Shown: one piece after another, positions 2,939-48,182 of the stretch
How positions within the stretch are numbered: position 1 is the stretch's first letter
Layout: each line of letters begins with the position of its first letter
Source: Pantoea eucalypti
Lineage (GTDB): Bacteria > Pseudomonadota > Gammaproteobacteria > Enterobacterales > Enterobacteriaceae
Length of the DNA: 64,000 nucleotides
Assembly: GCF_009646115.1 (NCBI RefSeq)
Contig: NZ_CP045720.1
Span: forward strand, 2,914,001-2,978,000
Direction: 5' to 3'
The notes under the pieces: generated by a model
What the model saw: only the letters and a program-made list of their open reading frames with translations
Told to the model about the DNA's origin: nothing
The model's database searches: none
Made by a program: the position numbers and the translations under genes

Positions 2939-3134
2939 AGCTTAAATTGCAGGGAACAGGGTCAGAGGAGGAAAGCGTCCCGTGCCAGGGACAAAAACGC
3001 CGGGAGCGTTTTTGAACAACGCAACGCGTTGGCCCGGCAACGGGCGCACCTCAGGGATGAGGTGCGTAATTGCGCGGGTCGAGCATGCCATGGATGGCGG
3101 CTTTTGCGTCTTTCCGATCTGACCCTGTTCCCTG
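2939..3134 (+). repeat. dispersed palindromic intergenic element, copy 1 (long form)
   Basis: Core 2950-3134. The left end CAGGGAACAGGGTCAGA is repeated perfectly and inverted at the right end (TCTGACCCTGTTCCCTG), and the complementarity continues imperfectly inward (GGAAAGcGTC against GGAAAGaCGC). Homology with the other copies starts slightly further left, around 2939. Inside are a hairpin with A/T flanks (AAAAACGC-cggga-GCGTTTTT, 2993-3013) and a second hairpin (GCACCTCA-ggga-TGAGGTGC). Related copies lie at 25566-25674, 47992-48182 and 58496-58600. There is no convincing coding frame. It lies between convergent ybhB and pgl. Confidence 0.88.
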
Positions 3135-25565: not shown

Positions 25566-25674
25566 CAGGGAACCCGGTCAGAGGAGGAAAGCGTCCCGCT
25601 CCAGGGACGGAGCGGGCCGAGCGTGTCATGGATGACGGATTTTGCGTCTTTCCGATCTGACCGTGTTCTCTGCG
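25566..25674 (+). repeat. dispersed palindromic intergenic element, copy 2 (short form)
   Basis: Left end CAGGGAACCCGGTCAGAGG, right end inverted (TCTGACCGTGTTCTCTGCG), with the conserved inner part GGAAAGCGTCCCG and GTGTCATGGATGACGG. About 80 bases found in the middle of copies 1 and 3 are missing. It lies between the ada-alkA gene and the tRNA-Lys operon, which converge. Confidence 0.85.
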
Positions 25675-25771
25675 CAGGCTGGATCTCATAGCGATACAGG
25701 CCAGGCTTGATCACTATCTTAAATGCCAGATGCATTGTGCTTTTGAATAATAAATAGATACAGCAGAAACG

Positions 25772-25800
25772 AAAAAAGCGCCCAAAGGGCGCTTCTTTCT
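25772..25800 (-). terminator. terminator of the distal rtT-like unit
   Basis: Stem AAGCGCCC / GGGCGCTT with TTT loop followed by TTTTTCG on the minus strand. It is the last of four near-identical terminators (others near 25945-25972, 26122-26150 and 26300-26330) met by transcripts leaving the tRNA-Lys operon. Confidence 0.85.
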
Positions 25801-26297
25801 TAATTGGTGGGTCGTGCAGGATTTCGGCCCTTCCAGGGCCTCGCCCTCCGGGTGATGCTGACGCATCAGCCTGAATCACCGGGCGATTCAGTCGAACCTG
25901 CTGCAGGTTCTCACCCTGCACGGTAACGCCCGTGCCCCGGAAACGAAAAAAGCGCCCAAAAGGCGCTTCTTTCTTAATTGGTGGGTCGTGCAGGATTGCC
26001 TCGGCCCTTCCCAGGGCCTCGCCCTCCGGGTGATGCTGACGCAACAGCCTGAATCGCCGGGCGATTCAGTCGAACCTGCTGCAGGTTCTCACCCTGCACG
26101 GTAACGCCCGTGCCCCGGAAACGAAAAAAGCGCCCAAAAGGCGCTTCTTTCTTAATTGGTGGGTCGTGCAGGATTGCCTCGGCCCTTCCCAGGGCCTCGC
26201 CCTCCGGGTGATGCTGACGCAACAGCCTGAATCGCCGGGCGATTCAGTCGAACCTGCTGCAGGTTCTCACCCTGCACGGTAAAGTCCGTGCCCCGGA

Positions 26298-26330
26298 AAC
26301 GAAAAAAGCGCCCAAAAGGCGCTTCTTTCT
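26298..26330 (-). terminator. first terminator after the tRNA-Lys operon
   Basis: Stem AGCGCC / GGCGCT with TTTT loop, then TTTTTTCG on the minus strand, about seven bases after the CCA end of the last tRNA. It is repeated in each downstream 178-bp unit. Confidence 0.85.
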
Positions 26331-26334
26331 TAAT

Positions 26335-26410
26335 TGGTGGGTCGTGCAGGATTCGAACCTGCGACCAATTGATTAAAAGTCAACTGCTCTACCAACTGAG
26401 CTAACGACCC
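26335..26410 (-). tRNA. tRNA-Lys (anticodon TTT), third in operon
   Basis: 76-nt gene on the complementary strand, beginning GGGTCGTTAGCTCAG, with anticodon TTT in GACTTTTAATC, T-arm GGTTCGAATCC and encoded CCA. It appears identical to E. coli tRNA-Lys. Its 3'-terminal 19 bases are repeated three times downstream. Confidence 0.98.
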
Positions 26411-26456: not shown

Positions 26457-26532
26457 TGGTGGGTCGTGCAGGATTCGAACCTGCGACCAATTGATTAAAA
26501 GTCAACTGCTCTACCAACTGAGCTAACGACCC
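26457..26532 (-). tRNA. tRNA-Lys (anticodon TTT), second in operon
   Basis: 76-nt gene identical to its two neighbours, with anticodon TTT and encoded CCA. Separated from the next copy by a 46-base spacer. Confidence 0.98.
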
Positions 26533-26603: not shown

Positions 26604-26679
26604 TGGTGGGTCGTGCAGGATTCGAACCTGCGACCAATTGATTAAAAGTCAACTGCTCTACCAACTGAGCTAACGACCC
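26604..26679 (-). tRNA. tRNA-Lys (anticodon TTT), first in operon
   Basis: 76-nt gene identical to the two downstream copies, with anticodon TTT and encoded CCA. First tRNA after the putative promoter at 26730-26757. In E. coli the same place (after cpoB) holds a mixed Lys/Val tRNA cluster; only Lys genes remain here. Confidence 0.98.
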
Positions 26680-26843: not shown

Positions 26844-27638
26844 TTACAGACCGCTCAGACGTTTCTGAGCTTGTTTAGCAGATTCAGTGTCTGGATAAAG
26901 TTTGATCACCTGCTGGAAGACCGCTTTGGCTTTCGCCGTGTCTTTTTTCTCCTGCATGATCACACCCACTTTCAACAACGCTTCTGCAGCTTTCGGCGAC
27001 TTCGGATAGTTTTTCACTACCGTGGCGTAATAATACGCCGCGTCGTCCTTTTTGCCTTTGTTGTAGTTCAGCTGACCCAGCCAGTAATTCGCATTCGGCT
27101 GATAGGTCGAATCAGGGTAACGTTTTACCCACGCCTGAAGCGCGCTGATCGCCTGGTCATACTGTTTCTTCTCCAGAATCAGCGCCACAGCCGCATTGTA
27201 ATCGCTGTTCGCATCGCCGGTCTGCGCAGGTGCGCTCTCCGTTGATGCTGCCGCGCCTGCGGTTGCTGCTGCGCCTGTATCTGCTGCGGCATCGCTGCCG
27301 GCTGCCTGTTGCCCGCCGTTGCTGCTGGCGCTGCTCAGCGTGTCAATCTGCTGGTAAAGCTGCTTCTGCCGCTCAACCACCTGATTCAACTGATACGTGT
27401 TTTGCTGGATTTGCCCACGCAGCGCATCAATATCACGCTGGTTATCGCTCATCTGCTGCTGCAATTGCTGCATCAGCTGTGCCTGGGCATTAGAGATTCG
27501 TTCAAGAGTGGTGACACGGTCTTCGACCGAGCCGGAGCCAACGCTACTGATTGACGCTTGGGCATTAGCGGCCCAGGGGGCCGCTACGCCAATCAGTAAC
27601 GACAGACTCAACAGATGACGTCTGAAGTTACTAACCAT
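26844..27638 (-). CDS. cpoB: cell division coordinator CpoB (YbgF)
   Basis: Periplasmic protein that couples the Tol-Pal system to septal peptidoglycan synthesis by PBP1B. 264 residues: signal peptide (about 1-26, ANAQAS), a coiled coil (about 40-105: VTTLERISNAQAQLMQQLQQQ onward) that trimerises, an Ala/Gly/Thr-rich linker, and a C-terminal TPR domain (about 140-264: DYNAAVALIL, YWLGQLNYNKGKKDDA). Starts nine bases after pal. Last gene of the tol-pal operon. Confidence 0.96.
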   Translation of the reverse strand: MVSNFRRHLLSLSLLIGVAAPWAANAQASISSVGSGSVEDRVTTLERISNAQAQLMQQLQQQMSDNQRDIDALRGQIQQNTYQLNQVVERQKQLYQQIDTLSSASSNGGQQAAGSDAAADTGAAATAGAAASTESAPAQTGDANSDYNAAVALILEKKQYDQAISALQAWVKRYPDSTYQPNANYWLGQLNYNKGKKDDAAYYYATVVKNYPKSPKAAEALLKVGVIMQEKKDTAKAKAVFQQVIKLYPDTESAKQAQKRLSGL

Positions 27639-27647
27639 GTGATTCTC

Positions 27648-28175
27648 TTAGTAGACCAGAACGGCACGACGGTTTTTAGAATACGCTGCTTCGTCATGAC
27701 CCAGAACGGCTGGCTTCTCTTTACCGTAAGAAACGATAGACATCTGATCAGCCGACACGCCTTTACCCTGCAGGTACATCTTAACGGCGTTAGCACGACG
27801 TTCGCCCAGGGCGATGTTGTATTCCGGCGTACCGCGCTCATCCGCATGACCTTCGATGGTCACTTTGTATGATGGGTTGCTGCGCAGGAAAGTTGCGTGC
27901 TGATCCAGCATCTGTGCGTAATCAGACTGAACGTCATATTTGTCCAGACCGAAGTACACGATGTTGTTCTGCTGCAGCTGCTGCATCTGCAGACGAGCCT
28001 GCTCGTCAGAAGACATGTTGCCGCCGTTGCCGTTCATGCCAGAATTTGCACCGTAAGCGCCATCAGCACCCATGCCAGTCTGGTCATTGTTGTTGTTTTT
28101 GTGTGAGCTACAAGCCGCTACTGCCAGAACCGGCAGAGCCAGCATCAAACCCTTCAGCACTTTGTTCAGTTGCAT
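27648..28175 (-). CDS. pal: peptidoglycan-associated lipoprotein Pal
   Basis: Outer-membrane lipoprotein that links the envelope to peptidoglycan and interacts with TolB and TolA. 175 residues. The lipobox LAVAAC places the lipidated cysteine at C22; a flexible Asn/Gly-rich linker follows, then an OmpA-like domain (about 65-175) with YFGLDKYDV, the diaminopimelate-binding [21 protein letters not shown] and the C-terminal NRRAVLVY. Confidence 0.97.
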
Positions 28176-29637: not shown

Positions 29638-30972
29638 TTATTGCGGTTTAAAACGCATCGGCGCGTTTTTAAACACTTCGTAGACCGCCTGAGAAGGCGG
29701 CTTCGGAATACGTGCCTGTTTGGCAGCAGCAATCGCGGCCTGGCAGAGCGCGGGATCACCACCCTCTGACTTAACATCAATCAACAAGCCATCAGGCGCA
29801 AGTTTAATCCGCAAATCACAGGTTTTTCCGCGATACAGATCGGCATCGTAGAATCGGCTCTGAATCGCACTCACCACCTGACCCATGTAGGAGTTGATCT
29901 CAGCGCCCGATGCCCCCGCTTTCTTCTGGTTGCCCTGCCCCGCTGCGCCACCTGAGGTGCCGCTTTTCGGTGCATTTTTACCGGAAGTGAGTCCACCCAG
30001 CAAATCATCAACATCGCTGTCATTGGCCGCATCGGCGGCAGCTTTCGCTTTGGCATCTGCTTTGGCTTTCGCGGCAGCATCGGCTTTCGCTTTGGCGGCC
30101 GCATCGGCTTTCGCCTTAGCAGCCGCTTCCGCCTTCTCTTTAGCGGCCTCTTTCGCCGCCTCAGCTTTCTCTTTGGCAGCTTCTTTGGCGGCTTCGGCTT
30201 TTTCTTTAGCGGCTTCAGCGGCTTTCTCTTTTGCTGCCTCAGCAGCTTTTTCTTTCGCTTCTGCGGCTTTCTCTTTCGCTTCTTCGGCGGCTTTAGCTTT
30301 GGCATCCGCAGCCGCCTTCACTTTGGCCTCAGCCGCCGCTTTTGCATCCGCTTCAGACTTTGCCTTCGCTTCCGCAACGGCTTTCTCTTTTGCCGCAGCG
30401 GCAGCAGCGGCTTTCGCCTGCTGATCAGCCTGCTTCTTTGCTTCAGCCGCGGCCTGCTTTGCCTGCTCGGCGGTCGCTTTGGCCTGGGCATCCGCCTGGG
30501 CTTTCGCATCGGCTTTGGCTTTAGCTGCTGCCGCTTCGGCCGTTTTCTGCTGTTCCTGAGCCTGTTTAGCGGCGTCTTCTGCCGCTTTCTGCTGCTCAGC
30601 CTGCTGTTTAGCCTCTTCTTTCGCGGTTTCCTGCGCGGCTAAACGCTCTTTTTCCAGCGCTTTCAGACGCTGTTGTTCAGCAGCCTGTTTCTGTTGCAGC
30701 TCTTCCGCCTGCTGCTGCGCCTGCTTTTTACGCTGCTGCTCAGCCCGCTGGCTGTCGCTTTGCTGGTTCTGCTGACGATTGTATTGACTCACGACGGCAC
30801 CGGGATCGACCATCACAGCATCAATATCGCTGCCTCCGCCACCCGCACTGCTGGGGTCAACGTGCTCATTAAACGAGCTCCAAATCAGCAGCGCGATCAA
30901 CACGATATGCAGAATCACCGAAATGATTATCGCGCGCTTTAACTTCTCGTTTTGCTCGGTTGCCTTCGACAC
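29638..30972 (-). CDS. tolA: cell envelope integrity protein TolA
   Basis: Energised link of the Tol-Pal machine. 444 residues. Domain I (1-45): cytoplasmic start MSKATEQNEKLKRA and one membrane helix (about 14-34). Domain II (about 60-320): long alanine/lysine/glutamate helix, with repeated AKEKAEAAKEAA and AAKAKADA blocks. Domain III (about 345-444): globular, with KTCDLRIKLAPDGLLIDVKSEGGDP and PKPPSQAVYEVFKNAP. It is some 20 residues longer than the E. coli protein, the difference lying in the repeats of domain II. Antisense of the repeats also yields a long open frame, which is not a gene. Confidence 0.97.
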   Translation of the reverse strand: MSKATEQNEKLKRAIIISVILHIVLIALLIWSSFNEHVDPSSAGGGGSDIDAVMVDPGAVVSQYNRQQNQQSDSQRAEQQRKKQAQQQAEELQQKQAAEQQRLKALEKERLAAQETAKEEAKQQAEQQKAAEDAAKQAQEQQKTAEAAAAKAKADAKAQADAQAKATAEQAKQAAAEAKKQADQQAKAAAAAAAKEKAVAEAKAKSEADAKAAAEAKVKAAADAKAKAAEEAKEKAAEAKEKAAEAAKEKAAEAAKEKAEAAKEAAKEKAEAAKEAAKEKAEAAAKAKADAAAKAKADAAAKAKADAKAKAAADAANDSDVDDLLGGLTSGKNAPKSGTSGGAAGQGNQKKAGASGAEINSYMGQVVSAIQSRFYDADLYRGKTCDLRIKLAPDGLLIDVKSEGGDPALCQAAIAAAKQARIPKPPSQAVYEVFKNAPMRFKPQ

Positions 30973-47991: not shown

Positions 47992-48182
47992 GCGCAGAGA
48001 ACATGGTCAGATCGGAAAGACGCAAAAGCCGTCATCCATGACACGCTCGGCCCGCGCGATTACGCACCTCATCCGAGAGGTGCGCCCGTTTCCGGGCCAA
48101 CGCTTTGCGTTGTTCAAAAACGCTCCCGGCGTTTTTGTCCATGGCGCGGGACGCTTTCCTCCTCTGACCGTGTTCCCTGCGC
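47992..48182 (-). repeat. dispersed palindromic intergenic element, copy 3 (long form, inverted)
   Basis: Same family as copy 1, in opposite orientation. Ends GCGCAGAGAACATGGTCAGATCGG-like (left) and TCTGACCGTGTTCCCTGCGC (right). It contains the hairpin AAAAACGC-tcccg-GCGTTTTT (48116-48136) and the GCACCTC/GAGGTGC hairpin. It lies between convergent gltA and nei and occupies most of the 347-base gap there. Confidence 0.87.

Follow-up and report, generated by a model that had tools for sequence, protein, structure and literature searches.

The window is a stretch of 64,000 nt from the Pantoea eucalypti genome and carries on its minus strand three tRNA-Lys genes followed by a tandem array of RtT units. 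In the list below, R1 denotes a model built from 28 units, all from within the order, and R2 a core-only model from which the tRNA flanks were left out.

26604-26679, 26457-26532 and 26335-26410, minus strand: three tRNA-Lys(TTT) genes (ARAGORN, Rfam tRNA).
26157-26334, minus strand: RtT unit 1, 178 nt, immediately 3' of the last tRNA-Lys (RF00391; R1 80.3 bits at 26157-26280).
25979-26156, minus strand: RtT unit 2, 178 nt (RF00391; R1 80.3 bits).
25805-25978, minus strand: RtT unit 3, 174 nt (RF00391; R1 70.9 bits).
26157-26175, 25979-25997 and 25805-25823, minus strand: tail copies in units 1, 2 and 3, the last 19 nt of tRNA-Lys including CCA (exact matches).
26259-26279, 26081-26101 and 25903-25923, minus strand: antisense arms in units 1, 2 and 3, complementary to the T-arm and acceptor 3' strand of tRNA-Lys (from the sequence).
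26248-26257, 26070-26079 and 25892-25901, minus strand: sense copy of the T-arm 5' half, GCAGGTTCGA, in units 1, 2 and 3 (from the sequence).
26176-26247, 25998-26069 and 25821-25891, minus strand: hairpin cores of units 1, 2 and 3 (R2 42.2, 42.2 and 30.1 bits).
26301-26322, 26123-26144 and 25945-25966, with a variant at 25771-25792, minus strand: terminator-like hairpin with a T run, GCGCCTTTTGGGCGCTTTTTTC, one in each unit plus the variant copy (from the sequence).

The first-pass annotation had described tandem units of 174, 178 and 178 bp behind the tRNA-Lys, each with the last 19 bases of the tRNA, and had likened them to the 178-bp rtT repeats of the E. coli tyrT operon. All of this was borne out. 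TRF reported an array at 25766-26353 with a period of 178, 3.3 copies and 97% matches, and the tail AATCCTGCACGACCCACCA is repeated exactly at the end of all three units. In the covariance search with RF00391 the units scored 53.3, 50.9 and 48.6 bits, all above the gathering score of 45, and in E. coli NZ_CP188155.1 the annotated RtT sRNA features are spaced 178 bp apart 3' of tRNA-Tyr. The window units are thus members of RtT. They share with the E. coli repeats the period and the tandem units with the 19-nt tail of the host, and differ in that the host is tRNA-Lys and not tRNA-Tyr, that each unit contains a terminator-like hairpin and that arm and core can be separated. We do not treat a tyrT host as defining for RtT; units above the cut-off occur with non-Tyr hosts across genomes. 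The predicted fold of unit 1 has an energy of −65.3 kcal/mol (z = −4.8 against 200 shuffles). A tandem GA motif in RtT is described in PMC7657543.

The annotation had also placed an intrinsic terminator in each unit. By eye this holds, as every window unit opens with a hairpin followed by a T run, the one at 26301-26322 standing between the last tRNA-Lys and unit 1. The terminator scan did not agree for three of the four copies: on the minus strand only the variant copy scored (25799-25771), and the other three scored on the plus strand only. If the hairpin works, its position ahead of each window unit would leave the RtT units to be transcribed by read-through only.

The units follow one layout. 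An antisense copy of the host T-arm and acceptor 3' strand is followed by the sense 5' half of the T-arm (GGTTCGA), the core, and finally the sense 3' half of the T-arm with the acceptor strand and CCA. The core between GGTTCGA and ATCC is mostly 60-85 nt long (~70 bp) and forms hairpins with varying stems and recurrent loops. The antisense arm pairs with the tail and covaries with it; in the window units 9 of 11 positions are complementary and one further position is a G-U pair. We rejected a degenerate tRNA copy as the origin of the unit, since the 5' part is antisense to the T-arm and does not correspond to the acceptor 5' strand. Across 163 non-redundant units the local antisense score was 27.0 for the own host compared to 17.2 for other isotypes. 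The own host scored higher in 153 of these units and exceeded all sampled others in 95. An 8-nt window test gave an observed value of 6.49 compared to a maximum of 5.61 in 300 permutations. Among the best antisense matches are 24 of 25 nt for a Pro host (L165) and, as the longest, 27 of 29 nt for a Ser host (L203, a truncated unit). In eight alignments the mismatches lay mainly in or beside the T-loop part.

In the whole P. eucalypti genome RF00391 matched 12 times, at five loci. The host operons are tRNA-Tyr x2, tRNA-Pro(TGG), Val-Val-Val-Lys, Lys x3 (the window) and Ser(GGA), and at every locus the unit tails equal the tail of their own host with 0 or 1 base different. The antisense arm and the four further unit-bearing operons were absent from the first-pass annotation. 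The tRNA-Tyr locus has RtT units of its own, with the host reading GGGAGAGGGATGAGAACCTTCG and the antisense arm GGGAGAAGGATTCGAACCTTCG. At the Pro locus there is a single unit; by eye, tail and terminator-like hairpin are directly repeated on either side of it. Adjoining this Pro unit, a region at 3997700-3998500 (L281) holds two cores in a different palindromic dispersed repeat (GGGAGCATACGCC...GGCGTATGCTCCC).

We then looked at the range of the units across genomes. At an E-value of 0.001 RF00391 matched in 39 of the 197 genomes searched across the order and in 68 of the 119 across the family, and E. coli was the only control genome with matches. R1 matched 81 of 295 order-wide and 49 of 143 class-wide genomes (P. 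eucalypti included); we take the class-wide set to be Gammaproteobacteria on the basis of the E. coli control match and the titles of the named relatives. Among 20 loci with R1 units (18 from the class set, 2 from the order set) the RF00391 cut-off was reached in only two. On a chosen subset of the matched places among the matches listed, R1 identified 316 distinct units, 128 of them in the class set, and all unit counts rest on this subset. A same-strand upstream tRNA was found within 1,500 nt for 291 units and within 100 nt for 197, and the nearest upstream tRNAs of the 291 units represent 18 isoacceptors and 68 different tails. We also considered and rejected carriage by phages, on the strength of a single class-set unit as query, which had no match in 50,697 phage records.

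The tail differed by at most two mismatches from the host tail in 214 of the 291 units (14 isoacceptors, 56 tails), compared to a mean of 33.9 and a maximum of 52 under permutation; R1 includes the arm pairing and hence favours self-complementary units, which is not the same as favouring a match to the neighbouring gene. For the class set alone the corresponding figures were 84 of 115 units, a permuted mean of 18.4 and a maximum of 27. Together with the five loci of P. eucalypti this upholds the annotators' suggestion that the repeat adopts the tail of its host. Their proposal of gene conversion of the tail alone did not stand as a full account: the antisense arm is host-specific too, and in genome G416 such arms adjoin nearly identical cores.

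Tails unlike the neighbouring tRNA, named in the annotation as the refuting case, were sought as well, and 77 of the 291 units have more than two mismatches. Most of these units (65) are the last in their array. In 38 of the 77 (31 last, 7 not) at least 7 of the 8 bases that pair with the antisense arm (tail positions 2-9) are kept; in 39 they are not. In last units the match to the host was 0.96-1.00 at tail positions 2-9 compared to 0.83-0.91 at positions 11-19, where non-last units showed 0.92-0.98; these comparisons cover the 252 of 291 units that had been pre-selected on positions 2-9. Three of the 77 are artefacts in which the hit starts inside tRNA-Lys and tRNA-Val was assigned as the host (L053 twice, L030). 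Arg-type tails were found 154-393 nt behind a Ser or Pro gene at L227 (two units) and L205, where ARAGORN may have missed a nearer gene. There are 25 hits without an upstream tRNA within 1,500 nt, among them contig edges, broken or missed tRNA genes and tRNA-internal copies. At L210 three units lie ~4-5 kb behind tRNA-Ser, and the hits at L077, L193 and L196 have neither an upstream tRNA within 1,500 nt nor an explanation.

The host need not be a tRNA. Four of the 25 hits (L148, L223, L190, L073) follow the tmRNA; their units have an antisense arm and tails of 15-19 nt that resemble the tmRNA tail, not always exactly. A pattern scan of the named genomes for a doubled tmRNA tail returned 70 stretches, of which R1 matched 18 at an E-value of 0.01. 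In 14 of these 18, including Kangiella taiwanensis and an uncultured Shewanella, the tmRNA predicted by ARAGORN ends at the first tail copy. The remaining 52 either have a different body or are unrelated. In betaproteobacterial tmRNA genes (L316, L334, L342, L346, L354, L358 and others) a tmRNA tail copy stands behind a different, recurrent body, which had weak partial matches in 2 of 150 phylum-wide genomes, and some Actinobacteria bins show yet another body with a tmRNA tail copy. Tail copying may therefore be wider than RtT.

The core can be followed independently of the arms. R2 matches all four E. coli RtT cores of NZ_CP188155.1. It has 44 matches in the P. eucalypti genome, and the five RtT loci are not among the 28 places listed. 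Within the window its matches are the RtT cores of the three units and a further two in Ysr224-like repeats, both of them outside the training set; a repeat without a core is given for comparison:

2992-3068, plus strand: core inside a Ysr224-like dispersed repeat, without a tRNA (R2 64.0 bits; filled copy L376).
48061-48137, minus strand: core inside another Ysr224-like repeat (R2 56.8 bits; filled copy L378).
25584-25721, no strand assigned: core-less Ysr224-like repeat beside the RtT array (RF02770 39.6 bits at 25588-25721, cut-off 70; motif at 25584-25597; empty copy L377).

In the filled repeats a core of the RtT kind sits in a hairpin loop. The Rfam matches to Ysr224 (RF02770) are weak and sub-threshold (39.6 and 44.2 bits compared to 70), and the repeats are not linked to tRNAs. 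The genome of P. eucalypti contains 26 copies with the exact 14-nt motif, 9 with a core (8 found by script and L372 by eye) and 17 without. A longer dispersed repeat in genome G523 has 39 copies, allowing up to 3 mismatches, and at least 7 of them are filled with a core at coordinates among the matches listed. Of 20 G523 copies that we read directly, 4 were filled and 16 empty. The filled copies read TCCTGA, 72 bp, AATCGAATAGGC and the empty ones TCCTGA, AATCGAATAGGC, which corresponds to a precise 72-bp insertion. A target-site duplication is absent at these sites (TCCTGA, core, AATCG versus TCCTGA, AATCG). Filled and empty sites with exact boundaries, as expected of a mobile, MITE-like insertion, are thus present between paralogous repeat copies, as distinct from orthologous sites of sister genomes. 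In the P. eucalypti repeats the right boundary of the core is less clean (CGGCGCGGG versus ATCGCGCGGG).

Cores were also seen in other surroundings. At L279, L284 and L289 they stand in direct head-to-tail tandem without a spacer. Inside tRNA-like genes they occur at the T-loop (L286, L095, L097, L103); the one at L286 396-473 occupies the T-loop of a tRNA-Ser-like gene and has a further copy beside it. At L198 342-414 a core occupies the D-loop of a broken tRNA-Ser.

Known bacterial MITEs, ERIC and YPAL for instance, are likewise short, hairpin-forming and dispersed and have filled and empty sites (review PMC2229807). The core differs in that it has no terminal inverted repeats of its own defined and no target duplication at the G523 sites, and in that the arms appear to come from the host gene. 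Non-autonomous elements of the IS200/IS605 (HUH) type insert precisely, in a fixed orientation and without target duplication, and form hairpins. The core may be analogous to them in its hairpins, its fixed orientation and its precise insertion without target duplication. The Y1 (HUH) transposase (PF01797) was present in six of the eight genomes searched, with no match in the P. eucalypti genome or in G455, and its absence from these two leaves it unsupported as the universal mover of the core.

We lean slightly towards the view that the RtT unit consists of inverted arms derived from the host and a mobile structured hairpin module of ~60-85 bp. This view rests directly on sense and antisense arms that are specific to the host, on the conservation of the fold, on filled and empty core copies in other repeats and on cores that follow different tRNAs of one genome yet are almost identical. 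We also count the tmRNA hosts and the covariation for it. Of the accounts that fit the arms in both orientations, the shared core and the precise filled sites, a module with host-copied arms is the simplest. The arms would be copied from the adjacent tRNA or tmRNA gene, and the module would interrupt the sense copy in its T-loop (TTCGA^ATCC). We infer that a module arriving behind a tRNA gains its arms when the 3' end of that tRNA is copied by fold-back (template switching), which would leave the real tRNA and its terminator intact. Arrays would expand afterwards by unequal crossing-over between tails, and the fold would be kept through selection on, or mobility of, the single strand. We take the module to be mainly selfish and the read-through RNA to be a by-product that some lineages may use. 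If the host gene does template the arms, a mobile piece would have an unusual means of settling harmlessly beside essential RNA genes. More tentatively, RtT could be one outcome of a class-wide mobile hairpin module, each copy of which gains a sense and an antisense copy of the 3' end of its host gene and is thereby tailored to that host. Such an element would not recognise its target but have its ends written from it.

Several observations count against the module with host-copied arms. The Y1 transposase is missing from P. eucalypti and G455, the comparison of filled and empty copies is between paralogues, the right boundary of the core in P. eucalypti is not clean, the Arg-linked units show a weak antisense arm match, and the holder of the longest antisense match, L203, is truncated. 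In the family set the nearest core relative was found at the same isotype in another genome in 22 of 28 cases, which suggests that these cores were mostly inherited vertically and which we also count against it. In the class set the nearest relative of 67 cores had the same isotype in another genome in 20 cases, another isotype in the same genome in 16 and another isotype in another genome in 31; genomes were assigned to loci by hand for all nearest-relative figures. We found no clean core-less palindrome that could serve as an intermediate among 287 distinct tRNA contexts of unit-bearing loci, which do not amount to a survey. An antisense copy of the own 3' end was present in 143 of these contexts, 119 of which have a tail copy at least 45 nt away and one a shortened core. 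The other 23 have no scored tail copy; by eye they reflect the 260-nt limit or the next gene, decayed tails and truncated units. At L096 and L203 the core is missing wholly or partly.

The strongest alternative sees RtT as a structured RNA under selection within the tRNA transcript, acting as a regulator. The tail would be kept identical to the tRNA through recombination or gene conversion in the array, and the antisense arm would follow by compensatory mutation, the closing helix being required. In the PGAP annotation the E. coli RtT is an sRNA that is processed out of the tyrT transcript, and the structure itself is strong. In the alignment of 28 units, 6 of 8 pairs of the closing helix have changed on both sides, and the whole structure has 70 double-changed cells, whereas shuffles gave 22.0 and slid partners 14-23. 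Within the closing helix G-U mismatches occur more often than A-C mismatches (43 of 410 versus 48 of 830, Fisher p 0.004 in a test that ignores relatedness). This asymmetry also fits a selected RNA, although we rejected an inference of RNA-level selection from it, the effect being modest and the statistics blind to relatedness. The part of the tail that belongs to the helix is kept in 31 of the 65 last units with decayed tails. Across 39 Tyr loci (order and family sets) the mean pairwise identity was 0.975 for the tRNA, 0.310 for the spacer (shuffled 0.192), 0.766 for the unit and 0.248 for the 45 nt after it. Something keeps the unit, be it selection, repeated recombination or both. We counted the contrast of 0.766 to 0.310 as constraint in favour of the module, yet a selected RNA function would also fit it.

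Other results are harder to reconcile with a selected RNA. The antisense arms reach beyond the helix into the T-loop and further, as in the 24 of 25 nt of L165, and the core is also present in other repeats. The window units and, by eye, the tmRNA-linked units stand after terminator-like hairpins. Of 5,426 E. coli genomes, 4,695 matched the query used, at 1 to 14 places each (median 3), and 731 had no match to it. In the best cross-host pair within one genome, the Gln and Val units of G416, the core identity is 0.945, both tails correspond to their respective hosts (0 and 1 mismatch) and so do the arms, which we read as recent spread between hosts; by eye one core hairpin differs by a compensated base pair. 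Host-specific arms beside nearly identical cores imply rather rapid change for a process of slow compensation. The next pairs, Ser/Arg in G455 (0.907) and Ser/Arg in G410 (0.897), are less clean, with 11 and 4 mismatches in the tails and Arg hosts 210-216 nt away. As two of the three pairs are less clean, the case for a module with host-copied arms is slightly weakened and that for a selected RNA slightly strengthened. On balance we regard the selected RNA as somewhat unlikely.

A poorer fit is the idea that RtT units are tiny site-specific integration products, formed by a tyrosine recombinase from circles carrying a tRNA 3' end, with the inverted T-arm as the binding site of the recombinase. 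The duplicated tails at tRNA and tmRNA genes and the tandem arrays do resemble integration at tRNA 3' ends, as does a direct repeat of 58 nt that joins tail and terminator-like hairpin, with a like repeat seen by eye at the Pro locus. Integrative elements are normally specific to one site. Here one type of core serves many different tails and is inserted in non-tRNA repeats too, and we consider such an origin improbable. It is highly improbable that the units are, as the first-pass annotation had put it, CCA-bearing mimics yielding putative decoy RNAs for tRNA 3' processing or tRNA-binding factors: the close tails of the 214 units would suit decoys, but the tails of last units agree less well with the host near the acceptor end and CCA, and in the lysine locus terminator-like hairpins stand ahead of the units.

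The tyrT repeats of E. coli, 178 bp in length, were discovered decades ago and to our knowledge still lack an accepted origin or function. Separating host-copied arms from a mobile-looking core may help to explain this old puzzle, and our results extend RtT-like units to the tmRNA and to 14 tRNA isoacceptors across the class. As far as our searches show, it is new that both tail and antisense arm follow the host, that the units spread to the tmRNA and across the class, and that the core is akin to insertions in other repeats. Neither the tail match nor the antisense arms of RtT are the subject of any title or abstract beginning among the matches listed from the open-licence literature. The link between the core and insertions in other repeats may be partly known already; Sharp is said to have described ~70-bp insertions within ERIC sequences in 1997.

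A few further characteristics of the cores and of the window were recorded. Class-set cores (e.g. L148 1501-1628) have hairpin loops reading CAGGA(N)G and ACAGGGAUGU, which we take to resemble the CsrA/CsrB motif and which are reminiscent of CsrB-type CsrA-binding RNAs. GGA occurred in 33% of the hairpin loops in the class set compared to 18% in shuffled sequences; unlike in CsrB-type RNAs, it was not enriched in the order and family cores (13% compared to 13% shuffled). The cores may perhaps act as a CsrA sponge. At L289 1103-1196 RF02902 (AaHKsRNA22) matched weakly over RtT-like units (35.2 bits, cut-off 39.8) and may be a further RtT-like member. In the window a CpoB/ybgF RNA thermometer (RF02782, 125 bits) at 27609-27747 adjoins the lysine tRNA operon, and short tandem repeats at 30053-30522 have periods of 18-48, all multiples of 3, and probably form a coding repeat.
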